Origin: Alphaproteobacteria bacterium
GTDB taxonomy: Bacteria; Pseudomonadota; Alphaproteobacteria; Rhodobacterales; Rhodobacteraceae
Length of the DNA stretch: 64,000 bases
Direction of reading: 5' to 3'
Assembly (NCBI GenBank): GCA_030429105.1
Contig: JAUIDE010000005.1
Coordinates: 1 to 64,000, forward strand
Positions 39,390-45,825 of the stretch are shown here, piece after piece. The position numbers and the translations under genes were made by a program. Positions within the stretch are counted from its first letter, which is position 1, and each line of letters starts with the position of its first letter. The notes under the pieces are model-generated. The model worked only from the letters and a program-made list of their open reading frames with translations. It was not told the origin of the DNA and did no database searches.

Positions 39390-39965
39390 TCAGCCCGCTG
39401 GCGGCTGCTTCGGCGGGCCGCCGCCGACGCGGGGCAGGGGGCGGCCCCCGTCCGTCAGCGCGACGGCGAGGACGATCTCTCCCGCCCGCGGCGCGTCCGG
39501 CATGGAGACCGTGATCGCGTCGAAATGCGCGCGGGACCATGCGTCATGCCGGTGCCCGAGCGGCACGTCGAAGCTCCGCCCTGGCCCGCCGCGCCCCTTG
39601 GCCGAGGGGATCAGCGCCGCGCCGCCGCCGATCAGCGCGCGGAGCGGCGCGCCGAGCTTCGGATGGAGAAGCGCGGCGGCGTGTTCCATCTCCCCGTCTT
39701 CGCCAACGAGAGCCGCCTTGCCGTAGCCCTCCACCGCCTCCGGCGCGCAGCCGAGGGTGGCGAGGGCGAGGCGGCCAAGCCTGTCGCCGAGGATCGCGCC
39801 CGTTTCGATCAGCTCCGAGAGATCCTCCACATAGCGCCCTGCGAAGGGGTTCGAGACGACGGCGAGCGCGACGGCGCGGCGGATCGGGCGGGGGAGGGGA
39901 CGGGTGAGCTCCGCGAAGGTTTCTTCCACCAAAGTCAGCGTCTTGCGGATTTCGGGTTCAGGCAT
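39390..39965 (-). CDS. Amino acid synthesis (AA_synth, PF06684/DUF1185) family protein
   Basis: 191 residues. The family pattern is visible: N-terminal IRKTLTLVEETFAE, then AVALAVVSNPFAGRYVEDLSEL, the GYGKAALVGEDGEMEHAAALLH segment (only part of it is quoted here as YGKAALVGEDGE) and GRSFDVPLGHRHDAWSRAHFD. The name 'amino acid synthesis' is historical and the biochemical role is not established. It ends the five-gene cluster and overlaps the UPF0280 gene by 8 bases, with GAGGAG upstream of the chosen ATG at 39965. The conserved link with a hydroxynicotinate-reductase-like gene suggests a step in N-heterocycle breakdown (inference). Confidence 0.85.
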   Translation of the reverse strand: MPEPEIRKTLTLVEETFAELTRPLPRPIRRAVALAVVSNPFAGRYVEDLSELIETGAILGDRLGRLALATLGCAPEAVEGYGKAALVGEDGEMEHAAALLHPKLGAPLRALIGGGAALIPSAKGRGGPGRSFDVPLGHRHDAWSRAHFDAITVSMPDAPRAGEIVLAVALTDGGRPLPRVGGGPPKQPPAG

Positions 39966-40797
39966 GGGCGAGGCGCTCCTCGGGGTCAAGCATGAGGGTC
40001 TCGCCGCCGAGCGCGAGGAGGGCGCCGCGGATCAGCCCGTCGTCGCGCATCCGTCGCGCCTCCGCGAGCCCCGCGGCCAGCGCGGCGCGGGCTTCCGCGG
40101 AAGAGATCGGGCCGAGGCCGGTGACGACCAGCCTTTCTCCAAGGTCGCTGTCGGGCGCGAGGCTCCGCGCCGGGGCGCGAGCGATGGCGGGATGGCCGGG
40201 CAGGTCGACGGCGTTGCCGATCAGCGTCGCCGCCGCGTCCGCCGCCGCGGCGGTTTCCGCCAACACGGTTACGCTCTCCGCAATCCCGAGGCTGAAGCTC
40301 CTCCCGCCGCGGCCGGAGGTGGCTACACCGCCGAACCCGCCTCCGGCGGCAAGGCGGAAGCGTCCGATCTCCCGACCGTCCGGGGCGCGGATCGCGGTGT
40401 CGAACGTCTCGCCGGGCGCGAGATGCAGCGCGATGTCGCCGCCATTGTTGACATAGGCGCGGGCGAGCGGCCCGGCGCGGCGCATCGCCGAGAGCACGGT
40501 CTCCGCCACCGCGCCCGCCACCGCCGCCATCGGCGTGACGAAGGCGCGGGCGGCGTGCGGGCGCGTCGCCAACCACATGCGCCGCGCCGTTTCGCCTTCG
40601 GGGCGTTCGGCGGTCGGGCGGCGAAGGAGCGGCAGCTCCGCGCAGAGCTCTTCGAGGATCGTCGCGAAACGCGTCTCCGCCGCTTGGAGGGCGGCGGCGC
40701 GGCCCGGCCCGTCCGCCCCGATCACGAGGTCGATGGGCCCGTGCCGGAGCGAGAGCCGCCCGCCGGAGAGCGGGGCCGAGACGGGCCGCTCCCTCAC
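39958..40797 (-). CDS. UPF0280 family protein (ApbE-like fold)
   Basis: 279 residues of the UPF0280 family, a relative of ApbE FAD:protein FMN transferases. Visible family stretches are FVTPMAAVAGAVAETVLSAM and AYVNNGGDIALHLAPGE, the latter matching the ApbE-like metal/FAD-binding NNGGD segment, and the later SLGIAESVTVLAETAAAADA. The start is GTG at 40797, overlapping the stop of the Hnr-like gene as GTGA; no ATG fits. Its coupling to a gene for a protein whose characterised relative carries covalent flavin makes a flavin-attachment role plausible, but this is an inference. Confidence 0.87.
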   Translation of the reverse strand: MRERPVSAPLSGGRLSLRHGPIDLVIGADGPGRAAALQAAETRFATILEELCAELPLLRRPTAERPEGETARRMWLATRPHAARAFVTPMAAVAGAVAETVLSAMRRAGPLARAYVNNGGDIALHLAPGETFDTAIRAPDGREIGRFRLAAGGGFGGVATSGRGGRSFSLGIAESVTVLAETAAAADAAATLIGNAVDLPGHPAIARAPARSLAPDSDLGERLVVTGLGPISSAEARAALAAGLAEARRMRDDGLIRGALLALGGETLMLDPEERLAHA

Positions 40798-42236
40798 CGT
40801 CCCCACCGGAAATTGCGCGCCGACCGCGGGTCCGGCGCCGCCGAAGCCTCGCGCCGCGCTCCGCCGATCACCTCCGCGAGCGGGCGGACCTGATCGGCAT
40901 GGCCGCCGAGGGCGAGATAGTCCGACAGGCGGAGCGTGAACTCGATGGGCGCGACGAGCGCCGGCGTCGGCACATAGCCGAATGCGTTGTGCGGCGTCTC
41001 CGTCACGTCCGCCATCACGGTGATGCCGCCGCCGGGCCAGAGATAGGCCGGCGCCCCGCCGATGGTGACGTTGGAAAGCATGGCGCGCACGGCGCGCGTG
41101 AGCCCGACCGGGTTCTCCGTCACGCCCGAGCGGAGCGAGCCGCCGGCGCCTGCCATAAAGAGCGCGGATGTCAGCGCGGGCTCGCAATTCTCCCGCACCC
41201 GTTCGGCGGAGGCGACAAGGGCGGGCGGCAGGTCCTCCTCCTCCGGCTCCAGCGCCTCGTTGAGGCGGAAGAAGGCGGCGTCCTCCCCCGTGGTCGAGAC
41301 CATGAAGAGCGTCATGCCCGGCCGCGCCTTCTTCGGGTCGGCGGGGCGGAGGATGGCGCGCGGGTCGGTCACGTCCGTCCCGCCCCAGCCGGCGCCGGGC
41401 TCCGCCACCTGGAAATAGCGGCCGGGGGTGGAGCGGCGGCCCTTCACGCGGATGCCGGTCGGCTCCAGCCCGAGCATTCGCCCGGCCTGATGCTCGGAGA
41501 GGACGCCGGTGATGTGGTCGTCCACCACGATCACCTCGTCCGCATGGGGCGCCCATTGCTTCGCGAACATGCCGATGGCGGCGGAGCCGCAGCCGACGCG
41601 CATCAGCCGCTCCTCCTTCCCGTCGATCAGCGGCGCGCGACCGGCCTGCACGACCATCGTCGCGCCGCCCTCGACGGATAGCTCCACCGCCTCCCGATTG
41701 CAGAGCGCGAGAAGCGTGGCGCAAGTGACGCGCCCCTCAGCCTTTCCGCCCCCGGTCAGATGCTCAACCCCGCCGAGGGAGAGCATGCGCGAGCCGTATT
41801 CCGAGGTCGTGACATGGCCGACCGGCTCGCCCTCCGCGCGGACGATGGAGCGCTCTTCACCGATATGGCGGTCCGTGTCGATCTTCAGCTTCACGCCGCA
41901 ATAGGAGAAGATGCCTTCGGTGACGACCGTCACCATGTCCACCCCCTCCACCTCCTCGGACACGATGAAGGGCGCGGGCTTGTAATCGGGATAGGTCGTG
42001 CCGGCGCCCACTGCCGTGAGGAAGGGCCTGCCGCGGACGATGCCGCCGTCCCAGGCGTCGCCAAGAAAGGGCACGGCGGGCGCGCCCGCCTCAATGGCGG
42101 TGAGCGGGTCGAGCCGCACCAGTTCGCCCCCGCAATTGGCGTAGCGGTCGCAGGCGCCCGCCCGGCCCTCGGCGATGTAGCAGAGCACTGGGCAGGCGTC
42201 GCAGCGGATCTTCCCGACCTCGGGCGCGTCGCTCAT
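40794..42236 (-). CDS. 6-hydroxynicotinate reductase-like Fe-S protein
   Basis: 480 residues resembling 6-hydroxynicotinate reductase (Hnr) of Eubacterium barkeri, which reduces 6-hydroxynicotinate to a tetrahydro-6-oxo product and carries a 4Fe-4S centre and covalent flavin. The N-terminus has a Cys cluster at 12, 15, 19, 29 and 35 (CDACPVLC...GACDRYANC), a plausible Fe-S site. Other landmarks are [20 protein letters not shown] and the C-terminal [22 protein letters not shown] at 190-193 is the only stretch resembling a flavinylation site and it is not canonical. Gene starts and stops overlap with both neighbours (ATGA, GTGA). Function in an aerobe is inferred from similarity and from the adjacent hydroxylase. 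Confidence 0.82.
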
Positions 42237-44977
42237 GCGCCGGCCTTCCGGAGCGCCGCGAAGAGCCGCGCGGGCGTCGCCGGCAGCTTGGCCGGACGCA
42301 CGCCTGTCGCGTGCGCGATGGCGTTGAGGATCGCCGGCGCGGTCGGGATCAGGGCGTGTTCGCCAAGGCCCTTGGCCCCGAACGGCCCATGCATGTCCCC
42401 CGCTTCGACGACAATCGTCTCGACCGGCGGCATGTCGCCGATGGTGGGGATGAGATAATCGTGCAGGTTCTCCGTCCGCCCCGGAATGTATTCCTCCATC
42501 AGCGCCATGCCGAGCCCCTGCGCGATCCCGCCCTCGACCTGCCCCTCGATGAGGAGCGGGTTGATGGCCCGGCCCACGTCATGCGCCGCGACGAAGCCTA
42601 GCGGGCGGACGGTTCCGAGCGCGAGGTCCACCTCTACTTCTGCGATATGCGCTGCGTAGCCGAACTGGGCGTAGGGCTCGCCCTGACCCGAAGCGTCGAG
42701 CGGCTTCGTCGGTGGGTCGTAGGTCTCCTCCACCCGGATCGCATAGCCGAGATCGTCGGGCGCGAATGCGAAGAGCGAAGGGCGGTGCGTCACGCCCGCC
42801 ACTGTGACGGTCAATCCCTCCGGCCCGGAGCCGATCCGCGCGCCTTCTCCCGCATTGACGAGGGCGAGGAGACGGGCGCGGAGCGCAAGGCCGGCGAGGC
42901 GCGCGGCGTTCCCGGTCACGAAAGTCTGGCGGGAGGCGGAGGTCTTGCCCGCGTCGGGCGTCAGGTCGGTGTCGGCCCCGACTGTTTCGATGGCGGAAAG
43001 GGGTGCGCCGAGCGCCTCCGCGAAGATCTGGGGGATAACGGTGTCCGCCCCCTGGCCGATGTCCATCGCGCCCTGATGCAGCACGATCCGCCCCTCCGGC
43101 GTGACCCCGGCGCGAATCGTAGAGGGATTGGGGAGCGAGGTGTTCCCACAGCCGTACCAGCCCGCCGCCACGCCGACCCCGCGGCGGAGCGGGCCGGTTT
43201 CGCCCACGTTGAACGCCTCCGCCGCAGCCCGCCGCGCCCTCCACGGCGCGCGCAGCGCTTCGAGGCAGGCGGAGATGCCGACGCCGTGGGAAAAGACCTG
43301 CCCCGTCACCGTCGGTTCGCTGTCGCGAAGCGCGTTGAGGATGCGGAACTCGAGCGGATCGAGACCGAGACGCGCCGCCAGCTCGTCCATCAGCGGCTCC
43401 GCCGCCGCCGCGGCCTGCGGCACGCCGAAGCCGCGGAAGGCGCCGGAGGGCGGGTTGTTGGTGTGGATCGCGCGCGCCTCCGCCCGATAGTCCTGCACCA
43501 GATAGGGGCCGGAGGCGTGGACGGGCACACGGTTGGCAACAGTCGGGCCCCAGGAAGCGTAGGCGCCGGTGTCGAATTCGCCCTCGAAGGCGAAGCCGCA
43601 GAGCCGCCCGTCCTCATCCGCCCCAATCCGCACCCGCATGGCGGCGGGATGCCGCTTCGTGCTCGCCCGCATCGACTCGCTCCGGCTCCAGGCGATGCGG
43701 ACGGGCCGGCCCGTGCGGATTGCGGCGAGGGCGAGGTAGGGCTGAACCGAAAGGTCGAGTTTCGCGCCGAACCCGCCGCCGACGGCGGTGGGCCGGATAC
43801 GGATGCGGCTCTCGGGCCAGCCGAGGATGAGCGCCAGCGCCTCCCGGTCCATCCCCGGCGCCTGGGTGCAGGCGGAGACCTCCAGCCTCTCTCCCTTCAT
43901 CTCCGCGAAACCGGCCTCGGGCTCGACATAGGCGTGCTCGACGAAGCTCGTCTCCAGCCGCCCCTCGACGACATGGGCGGCGCGCGCAAGCGCCGCCTCG
44001 GCGTCGCCGCGGGCGACGAAGCCTCGGCACATGAGGTTGCCGGGCCGCCCTTCATGCAACGCCGCTGCATCGGGGGCACGCGCCGCCGCCGGGCTTTCCA
44101 CAGCGGGCAGGGGCGCCCATGAGACGGGAAACTCATCCGGGGCGAAGCGCGCCATCTCCTCCGCCTCGCCCACGACGGCGGCGACCGCCTCGCCCCGGAA
44201 GCGGACCTCGGAGACTGCGAAGACGGGCTGGTCCGCAAAGGCCGGGATGACGCCGAAGCGGTTCTCCCCCGGCACGTCCGCAGCCGTGAGCACGCAGGCG
44301 ACCCATGGCCGGGAGGCCGCCCAAGCCTCCAGGTCGCCGAAGGCGAAGGCGGCGCGGGGATGGGGCGAACGGATAATGCGAAGTACGAGCGCGCCGGGGG
44401 GCGCGAGATCGTCCCCGAACCGTGTCAGCCCCACGACCTTCTCCGCCCCGTCGCGCCGGATCACGCCCGCGCCGACGCCGCCCTCCGTGGGCGCGGGCGC
44501 GATGCGCCCCGCCGCCGCATCCGCCACCGCCGCGACGATCTTGCGGTAGCCGGTGCAGCGGCAGAGGACGCCGGCGAGCGCTCGCTCGATCTCCGCCTCG
44601 CCTTTCGGCCCCTCGGCGCGGAGCAGGGCGGCGGCGGAGACCATCATGCCCGGCGTGCAGATCCCGCATTGCGCGGCTCCACGCGCCTCGAACGCCGCGG
44701 CGAGGGCGCGGCCCTCGGTTGTCTCCCGCAGGGCGGCGACCGTCTCGACCGAGCGCCCCTCCGCCCGCCGCGCTGGGGTCAGGCAGGCGCAGACAGGCGC
44801 GCCGTCGACCATCACGGTGCAGGCCCCGCAATCCCCCGCGTCGCAGCCGATCTTGACCTCGAGCGCGCCGAGCCGGTTTCGCAGGGTCTCCGAAAGCCGC
44901 TCGCCCGCGCGGGGCTCCGCCGCGACCGGCGCGCCGTTGAGGCGAAAGGCGAGCGGGGCGGGGGCGGCGCGGTTCAC
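42233..44977 (-). CDS. Xanthine dehydrogenase-family hydroxylase, fused 2Fe-2S and molybdopterin subunits
   Basis: 914 residues. Residues 1-155 are the 2Fe-2S subunit: plant-type cluster Cys45, Cys50, Cys53, Cys65 and the second cluster Cys104, Cys107, Cys139, Cys141 ([17 protein letters not shown]). Residues ~165-914 are the molybdopterin subunit, with the conserved active-site Glu873 in [17 protein letters not shown]. In most relatives these are separate polypeptides; here the electron-entry and Mo parts are fused. Such enzymes hydroxylate a carbon next to N in heteroaromatic rings using water. The gene overlaps both the FAD-subunit gene and the Hnr-like gene by four bases. Substrate unknown; nicotinate-like heterocycles fit the neighbour. 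Confidence 0.92.
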
Positions 44978-45825
44978 GGGATCAGCCCCGCGCCCGCCGC
45001 CGCTTCGCGAAGCGCGCGCCGCGCGATCTCCGCCGCCGCGGCGTGGCGATATCCGGCGTCCGCCCGCACGTCGTCGATCGGCGCGAGCGGGCCGAGATGC
45101 GGCGCGACGAGCGCCGGATCGTCGAGCGCGCCCGGCTCCGCCCCCGCCAGCGCCGCCTCCAGCCCGGGGAGCCGCACGGCGACCGGCGAGCAGGCGCCGA
45201 CCGCGACGCGCGCCGCGCCGATCCGCCCGCCCGCGCCGGGGGCGACGAGCGCCGCCGCCATCGCGATGGAGATGACGAGATGCGCCCGCGCGCCGAGCTT
45301 CACGAAGGCGCCCGCCGCGCCCTCAGGCGGCGGCGGAATATGGACGGCGACGAGCAGCTCGCCGGGCTTCAGTGCAGTCCGCCGCGGCCCGGTCAGGAAT
45401 TCGGAGAGCGGCAGGCGGCGCGCGCCCTCCGCGCCGGCGACCTCGACCTCTGCGTCGAGCGTCAGAAGCGGCGGAATTCCGTCCGCCGCCGGCGAGGCGG
45501 TGCAGAGATTGCCGCCGATGGTTCCCGCATTCTGGATCTGGACAGAGCCGACCATTCGCGCCGCCGCGCGGAGCCCGTCGAAAGATCGCGGAAACGGATG
45601 CGATGCGATCTCCGTCCAGGTCGTAAGCGCGCCGATGCGCCAACCGTCGGGCCCCGCAGCGATGCCGCGGAGCGCAGTGACCCCGGTCAGGTCGAGGAGC
45701 CGGGCGGGGGCGGGGCGCTCCCCGAGCGCGGGATAGAGATCGGTGCCGCCGGCGATGGCCGGCCCCGCGCCTTCGCGCATCAGCGCGAGCGCGTCCTCCA
45801 GTGTGGCGGGGGCGGCGTAGGCCAT
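44974..45825 (-). CDS. FAD-binding subunit of the molybdenum hydroxylase
   Basis: 283-residue medium (FAD) subunit of the xanthine dehydrogenase/CO dehydrogenase family. FAD motifs [12 protein letters not shown] near residues 24-35 and [16 protein letters not shown] near 115-130 are present. It accepts electrons from the 2Fe-2S clusters of the fused partner encoded next. I start at 45825 ([13 protein letters not shown]); the frame is open upstream but the family begins here. It is the first gene of the cluster, and 178 bases separate it from the divergent cyclase gene. Confidence 0.92.

Follow-up and report, generated by a model that had tools for sequence, protein, structure and literature searches.

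The 64,000-nucleotide window analysed here, from an alphaproteobacterium of the family Rhodobacteraceae (assembly GCA_030429105.1, contig JAUIDE010000005.1, positions 1 to 64,000), carries on its minus strand five overlapping genes that form one operon (39390-45825). The core of this operon is a known nicotinate module and is not new. The operon probably supplies the enzymes for the first two reactions of a reductive route of nicotinate breakdown; their product, 1,4,5,6-tetrahydro-6-oxonicotinate (THON), would be opened by a HyuAB enzyme encoded elsewhere in the genome instead of by enamidase. The new part is this exchange of the ring-opening enzyme; neither the exchange nor the strict coupling of UPF0280 to 6-hydroxynicotinate reductase (Hnr) turned up in the open-access literature searched. 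Genomes, contigs and loci are cited below by labels beginning with G, C and L. The genes of the operon are:

44974..45825, minus strand: flavin adenine dinucleotide (FAD)-binding (medium) subunit of a molybdenum (Mo) hydroxylase of the xanthine dehydrogenase family; ATG start at 45825; Pfam FAD_binding_5 (2e-43) and CO_deh_flav_C (9.4e-10)
42233..44977, minus strand: fused 2Fe-2S/molybdopterin subunit, presumed nicotinate 6-hydroxylase; GTG start; Pfam Fer2, Fer2_2, Ald_Xan_dh_C, MoCoBD_1 and MoCoBD_2
40794..42236, minus strand: Hnr-like 6-hydroxynicotinate reductase, presumed iron-sulfur (Fe-S) protein; named from the annotation of plasmid homologues
39958..40797, minus strand: UPF0280/COG2122 protein with a predicted ApbE-like fold, probable Hnr maturation factor; GTG start; NCBIfam PRK04334.1-2 (349 bits, cut-off 290)
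39390..39965, minus strand: AA_synth protein (PF06684, DUF1185), B-type paralogue and relative of SPO0826/2QTP; ATG start, with a TTG at 39989 as a possible alternative; Pfam 2.7e-66, 223 bits (cut-off 27)

A probable exchange of the ring-opening enzyme

The genome that contains the window (G000; 4.46 Mb, 201 contigs) is 99.48% complete. Enamidase was not found in it by single-sequence search, and a profile search gave as its best result a weak amidohydrolase match (1.8e-4), which makes this genome a variant rather than a full member of the Ndh-Hnr-enamidase route. An earlier reading of this DNA from the sequence only had noted that ring-opening enzymes are not adjacent to the operon and that later steps may differ; the remark proved productive, as enamidase was not found genome-wide and HyuAB is present instead.

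Hnr is present in 32 of 398 genomes of the phylum. An enamidase profile at E 0.001 matches 273 of the 398, mostly through short weak stretches of other amidohydrolases, and strong matches (E <1e-100, the next being 3.3e-10) are found in 19 genomes. Seventeen of these are Hnr genomes (599-794 bits, E about 5e-180 or better); the other two, G238 and G289, lack Hnr and possess lower-scoring relatives of the enzyme (349 and 340 bits) beside an AA_synth gene. When the surroundings of Hnr were fetched from the 14 other enamidase-less Hnr genomes and from G123 and G194, HyuA and/or HyuB genes of the ATP-dependent oxoprolinase/hydantoinase family were found in 8 of the 16 loci (L131-L146).

A search with one Hnr-linked HyuB covered the 32 Hnr genomes together with 32 genomes lacking Hnr (64 in all), and then 80 further Hnr-less genomes. 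A HyuB clade 67-100% identical to the query (at least 850 bits, the next matches reaching no more than 46%) occurs in 17 of the 32 Hnr genomes, namely in all 15 that lack enamidase and in G123 and G194, which possess both openers. More specifically, 15 Hnr genomes have enamidase only, 15 have the HyuB clade only, two have both and none has neither. The clade is absent from the 112 Hnr-less genomes searched (best match 317 bits and 33% in the first 32, 45% in the 80 others). In 7 of the 17 HyuB-clade genomes HyuB and Hnr are separated by no more than about 15 kb. Fisher's exact test of the alternation within the 32 Hnr genomes gives p 2.4e-7, a value that is too small given the relatedness of these genomes.

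The same alternation is seen in a second data set of 72,556 plasmid records. Hnr occurs on 26 of them, of which 16 carry enamidase (67-89% identity) and 10 the HyuB clade (74-81%), with none carrying both and none neither; some of the enamidase-type Sulfitobacter plasmids (e.g. NZ_CP081121) also have a HyuB of a different clade (about 43%). On the Fuscovulum ytuae plasmid NZ_CP124537 a single stretch comprises genes for MarR, the FAD and Mo subunits, Hnr, UPF0280 and AA_synth, an unknown gene, five transporter genes, HyuA and HyuB. A stretch from Neorhizobium NCHU2750 (CP030828) contains annotated nicA/nicB, fpr, a transporter, MarR, hnr, UPF0280, two AA_synth genes, hyuA and hyuB. In Pleomorphomonas SM30 an annotated nicR accompanies Hnr, UPF0280, AA_synth, HyuA and HyuB, and the stretch displayed includes no Mo hydroxylase. 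Because enamidase and HyuB alternate in both genomes and plasmids, we infer that HyuAB replaces enamidase. Among the matches listed from the open-access literature, no paper joins HyuAB with nicotinate in its title or abstract.

The window's own genome encodes such a pair on another contig (C69), where adjacent genes contain the Hydantoinase_A and Hydantoinase_B domains above the curated cut-off. The two proteins are 59-65% (HyuA) and 71-76% (HyuB) identical over their length to the Hnr-linked pairs; for the other HyuA proteins of the genome the value is about 40%, and its five other HyuB proteins reach at most 37%. Against the PDB, the C69 HyuA matches N-methylhydantoinase (7HK5, 4.8e-117) and 5-oxoprolinase (6YRA, 2.1e-111). 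Compared with the ATP-dependent lactam hydrolases 5-oxoprolinase OplAB, caprolactamase CapAB and N-methylhydantoinase, the Hnr-linked HyuB forms a separate clade, seen only in Hnr-bearing genomes among those searched. The oxoprolinase OplAB is described as hydrolysing delta-valerolactam (PMC11033972), a six-membered lactam like THON, which provides a chemical precedent.

Phylogeny of Hnr and the question of the substrate

In the Hnr tree (45 rows, with G322 and G016 left out), 13 of the 16 rows from HyuB-clade genomes, labelled HYU or BOTH, group in one clade (99/97). The window's Hnr is placed elsewhere, in a 10-row clade (97/95); of its 9 other rows, 8 come with enamidase (G339, L009, L015, L016, L020, L043, L046 and L060; none was seen within 10 kb in L008), and the Hnr proteins of G139 and G167 also cluster with enamidase-type rows. 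The HYU label changes at least five times on the tree, and therefore the openers appear to have been exchanged several times. Such exchange inside a single Hnr lineage speaks for a common substrate, and the substrate of the window's Hnr is probably that of its enamidase-type clade neighbours.

Alternatively, the same enzymes may act in the HyuAB-type genomes, the window's own included, on another substrate such as picolinate, an N-methylated pyridine carboxylate or another N-heterocycle, whose reduced lactam would need HyuAB instead of enamidase. This explanation is rather unlikely. It would account for the grouping of most HyuAB-type Hnr proteins in a clade of their own, for the Bmp-type transporter beside the C69 pair, which is unseen at the other loci compared, and for the variation of the Mo hydroxylase by lineage (L180 has the NicAB type, the window the fused one). 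However, the window's Hnr groups with the enamidase type and not with the HyuAB clade, G123 and G194 pair one Hnr with both openers, and a HyuAB-type cluster includes an annotated nicotinate dehydrogenase, nicAB.

Several observations weigh against nicotinate as the substrate and against HyuAB as the substitute for enamidase. The main doubt about the C69 pair itself, which is unlinked to Hnr, concerns its genomic setting: the operon of a Bmp-type ATP-binding cassette (ABC) transporter (binding protein, ATPase, two permeases) continues directly into HyuA and HyuB, and because its binding protein and permeases have no match in the other loci compared (the ATPase is 30-38% identical to other ABC ATPases), the pair could serve another lactam. 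In G139 and G016 HyuA is not adjacent to HyuB. The counts are not independent, since one genus (g34) supplies 8 of the 17 HyuB genomes, another (g30) supplies 9 of the 17 enamidase genomes, and Sulfitobacter supplies 12 of the 26 Hnr plasmids. The search for the HyuB clade covered 112 of the 366 Hnr-less genomes, leaving 254, and seven plasmids (six of Sinorhizobium medicae and one of Rhizobium rhododendri) carry the clade without Hnr on the same record; the Sinorhizobium medicae strains may have a chromosomal Hnr, or the clade may serve some other purpose. The branch of the window's Hnr is long (0.70) and its position in the tree is unsure, and the substrate is assigned from gene context alone. 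One of the Sinorhizobium medicae examples, NC_009620.1 at 100427-102106, is a HyuB of the Hnr-linked clade (76%).

It is improbable that THON is opened by a different enzyme, either AA_synth or an isochorismatase-like amidase on contig C67, and that HyuAB does something else. In its favour, 31 of the 32 Hnr genomes possess AA_synth, a gene that stands beside the enamidase relatives of G238 and G289 even without Hnr. In 9 of the 16 loci from HyuB-clade genomes an isochorismatase-like gene is found close to Hnr, and the window's genome has a 65% identical copy. AA_synth is equally present where enamidase exists, however, and thus shows no alternation, and the isochorismatase-like gene is found in one lineage (family f10) among the 16 loci and also in the enamidase-type locus L060. 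The isochorismatase-like hydrolase of the window's genome is encoded on C67 at L169 3853-4446 and could act as an amidase later in the pathway.

The operon and the known nicotinate module

Conservation of the operon was surveyed in a scan with one genome per species, in which the best 80 of 503 Hnr relatives were kept; the sample is biased to close, mostly rhodobacterial relatives. Enough flanking sequence is available for 68 of the 80 loci, and 58 have at least 9 kb on both sides. The FAD, Mo, Hnr, UPF0280 and AA_synth genes occur in the same order and on the same strand in 64 of the 68 (all except L065, L068, L073 and L078), an arrangement that is beyond chance. Enamidase, recognised by the match of the neighbouring amidohydrolase to PDB 2VUN (E 3.7e-105), lies within 10 kb of the cluster in 45 of the 58 loci. 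The same loci include two AA_synth genes (53), MarR (49), a branched-chain-type ABC binding protein (45), ferredoxin-NADP reductase (23), Rieske oxygenase (21) and CoA-transferase (14), with HyuA or HyuB in none.

A nicotinate cluster has been described in the aerobic Azorhizobium caulinodans and in Bradyrhizobiaceae SG-6C, where nicotinate is converted through 6-hydroxynicotinate to THON; its contents are given as first-step genes, a homologue of Hnr, an ABC transporter and two proteins of unknown function, the alphaproteobacterial Hnr being 42% identical to that of Eubacterium barkeri (PMC3511419). The THON route is also summarised in PMC9304392. The window resembles this cluster in its first-step genes, Hnr homologue, two extra proteins and apparently aerobic alphaproteobacterial host, and the two proteins of unknown function would correspond to UPF0280 and AA_synth. 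It differs from relatives in lacking an adjacent transporter and a MarR gene, and whereas a relative of the published type, Azorhizobium oxalatiphilum (L078), has enamidase, the window's genome shows none and has HyuAB. The enamidase neighbour in relatives, the published cluster and the THON route together identify the core of the operon as the known nicotinate module, and the substrate is very probably nicotinate.

The genes for nicotinate fermentation in E. barkeri are reportedly ndhFSLM, hnr and ena. The first two steps would involve the same chemistry in E. barkeri and in the window; the Mo hydroxylase of E. barkeri is split, whereas the window's Mo subunit is fused to the 2Fe-2S part, and enamidase is absent from the window's genome.

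The fused Mo subunit matches nicotinate dehydrogenase in the PDB (3HRD, 1.1e-80 and 7.1e-55), with aldehyde oxidoreductase (1DGJ) and others scoring higher, and is presumed to be a nicotinate 6-hydroxylase. As in the Ndh-Hnr-enamidase route, the gene for this hydroxylase of the xanthine dehydrogenase family stands together with the Hnr gene. For the Hnr-like protein, Pfam and NCBIfam gave no match at E 0.001. Its name derives from the annotation of its homologues on the 26 plasmid records (60-68% identical), which are annotated as 6-hydroxynicotinate reductase in 17 cases and as hypothetical protein in 3 and are unannotated in 6. A 6-hydroxynicotinate reductase homologue is thus present, as judged against annotated plasmid proteins. 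Nine cysteines are invariant across 15 aligned homologues. A homologous solved structure was not found by sequence, and a model built from the 15-sequence alignment (mean predicted local distance difference test, pLDDT, 50.6) was uninformative in Foldseek and VIA searches (best E 1.2, best Z 3.5).

Two further features of Hnr were observed. Residues 115-150 (window 41787-41894) match the C-terminal barrel of glycine cleavage T-protein weakly in 13 of the 15 homologues (best 3.2e-4), and T-protein 1WOO was matched at Z 2.7 using the poor Hnr model. In G016 (L135 9818-11226) the match to Hnr falls into two adjoining parts (residues 8-245 and 245-489), consistent with a split gene or a frameshift.

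The overlapping run of five genes from the named families, as proposed by the sequence-only reading, is upheld by the coordinates (successive genes overlap by 4, 4, 4 and 8 bases), the domain matches and the plasmid annotation of Hnr, and the hydroxylation and reductive dearomatisation of an N-heterocycle that it proposed are supported by context. The heterocycle that it had left unnamed is very probably nicotinate, as the enamidase near relatives' clusters and the published cluster suggest, and an aerobic setting, to which it had pointed, had already been described in Azorhizobium and Bradyrhizobiaceae (PMC3511419). The co-occurrence of families that it proposed to check proved to be common rather than rare: all 32 Hnr genomes have UPF0280, and 31 of them have AA_synth.

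The operon is flanked in the window by a transketolase gene downstream and a divergent cyclase-domain gene upstream. These flanking genes are unmatched in the 80 relatives' loci, except for the transketolase gene in a near relative, L002, whose contig includes part of Hnr, UPF0280 and AA_synth. A decayed or truncated nicotinate pathway that ends at THON in this organism is very improbable. It would be in keeping with the lack of enamidase, MarR, a second AA_synth gene and an adjacent branched-chain-type transporter at the locus, the nearest such genes being 20 kb away; yet the five reading frames are all open and overlap one another, the three proteins of L002 are 89-96% identical to those of the window, and a HyuAB orthologue is present.

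VanA-type Rieske oxygenase genes (e.g. L020 14242-15309) lie within 10 kb of the cluster in 21 of the 58 loci and might serve in the demethylation of an N-methylated pyridine carboxylate (trigonelline or similar) that feeds the pathway; among the matches listed for trigonelline in the open-access literature, none concerned this cluster. Homarine was considered as a possible substrate of the marine clusters, prompted by a 2026 study that PMC13390433 cites. Soils, plants and the sea commonly contain nicotinate and its methylated forms. Ferredoxin-NADP reductase genes are found near HyuAB in the HyuAB-type loci L137, L141, L144, L170-L175 and L180 (64-72% identical to that of L071), and the enzyme may be the electron supplier of Hnr.

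UPF0280 as a candidate maturation factor of Hnr

Each of the 32 Hnr genomes has a UPF0280 gene on the same strand as Hnr and no more than 600 bases behind it; the 366 Hnr-less genomes yield a single short weak match (G293, 4.5e-5). UPF0280 is constant with either ring opener, and therefore its partner would be Hnr or the hydroxylase and not the opener. Among the relatives' loci, three run counter to so strict a coupling: L065 shows no UPF0280 in the 10 kb flanking Hnr, and L068 and L073 have it upstream of Hnr, at a distance and together with AA_synth.

The predicted structure of the window's UPF0280 (pLDDT 91.6) matches 2O34 (Z 20.6) and the ApbE/Ftp flavin transferases (Z 14.6-16.9, 202-215 residues aligned), with the next structural group at Z 7.8 and uricase and GTP cyclohydrolase below 8; the model thus has an ApbE-like fold. 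In Pfam, the window's protein matches no family at E up to 10, and ApbE is matched weakly by 8 of 17 homologues (best 5.9e-5). ApbE-type flavin transferases possess a His-Ile-x-Asp-Pro-x-Thr-Gly loop (HIxDPxTG), and the target site of ApbE has the motif Dxx(S/T)GA(S/T). UPF0280 shares the fold of these enzymes but not the loop, which is absent, by reading, from all 17 aligned rows. Reading of the Hnr alignment likewise reveals no conserved target site; DHITGVL, which is invariant or almost so, carries Leu at the acceptor position. An ApbE-target-like SVEGGAT at residues 187-193 of the window's Hnr was considered as a flavinylation site and rejected, being unconserved in 14 aligned homologues.

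A flavin transferase role is attractive because the Hnr of E. barkeri reportedly contains a covalent flavin. Maturation of Hnr in some form is the function we would slightly favour for UPF0280; flavin transfer to Hnr in particular is possible but doubtful. A COG2122 protein is genetically tied to DUF39 and a NIL/ferredoxin system in homocysteine synthesis (PMC5764234). There the partner is DUF39, whereas the partner of the window's UPF0280 would be Hnr, and a shared partner family is unsupported, as a permissive Pfam scan of Hnr members gave no match to PF01837 (DUF39/HcyBio).

AA_synth and the crystal structure 2QTP

Of the 32 Hnr genomes, all but G139 (31) have AA_synth, as do 28 of the 366 Hnr-less genomes. 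Two copies are found in 53 of the 58 relatives' loci; the window has one, as does the L002 contig, and a search of the window's whole genome finds no further copy. The window's protein, a member of PF06684/DUF1185, is 53-64% identical to the relatives' B copies and 95% identical to that of L002, and it matches PDB 2QTP and 3BYQ. 2QTP (SPO0826) differs by one residue, by reading, from the B-type AA_synth of Ruegeria pomeroyi at L046 12937-13515, which places this crystal structure in this very cluster.

The amino-acid role argued for in the paper on 2QTP is based in part on the branched-chain-type transporter SPO0822-0825 next to the gene (PMC2954203). In L046, branched-chain-type transporter genes come directly after AA_synth; because they belong to this cluster, the amino-acid role drawn for PF06684 from transporter neighbours looks mistaken, as judged from L046 and not from the SPO genes themselves. 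An AA_synth homologue also takes part in the breakdown of coumarin and, by report, of trigonelline (PMC7913881). The protein might handle enamine or aldehyde intermediates, which we offer as a guess. Enamidase-like genes (41-43% identical) adjoin AA_synth at L149 5074-6800 and L150 4089-5910 in Hnr-less genomes, with a gene for an AMP-binding enzyme upstream in L149.

Proposed pathway and implications

In the pathway considered probable here, the FAD and fused Fe-S/Mo proteins would hydroxylate nicotinate, or a close relative, at C6, and the Hnr-like protein would reduce 6-hydroxynicotinate to THON. UPF0280 would help to produce active Hnr by maturation or cofactor attachment. With enamidase missing, the HyuA and HyuB encoded beside the ABC transporter on C69, as an ATP-dependent enzyme of the oxoprolinase type, would open the THON lactam, and AA_synth may be an accessory of this ring-opening stage, perhaps for an enamine or aldehyde product. 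The opening of THON would yield 2-formylglutarate and ammonia and would lead into glutarate metabolism. What the analysis establishes is the gene content and its conservation, the alternation of enamidase with HyuAB, the tight link between Hnr and UPF0280 in the genomes sampled, and the fold predicted for UPF0280; the substrate, all of the reactions and the parts played by UPF0280 and AA_synth are deduced from these. A more far-reaching proposal, which we put forward tentatively and with some doubt, is that the reductive route uses two unrelated and interchangeable openers, enamidase or the HyuAB clade, and that UPF0280/COG2122 is a dedicated Hnr maturase, possibly a new type of flavin transferase without the usual loop or target motif.

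If these proposals prove true, 15 of the 32 sampled bacteria with the Hnr route would lack the known ring opener and use another, and a gene clade now named hydantoinase or acetophenone carboxylase would gain a testable substrate. Two families listed as unknown would acquire a function, and the COG2122 protein of homocysteine synthesis would be joined to the same kind of job. Three old questions would become directly testable in bacteria that are harmless and can be cultured: the function of UPF0280, the function of the crystallised PF06684 family, and the reduction of an aromatic ring in an aerobic cell.

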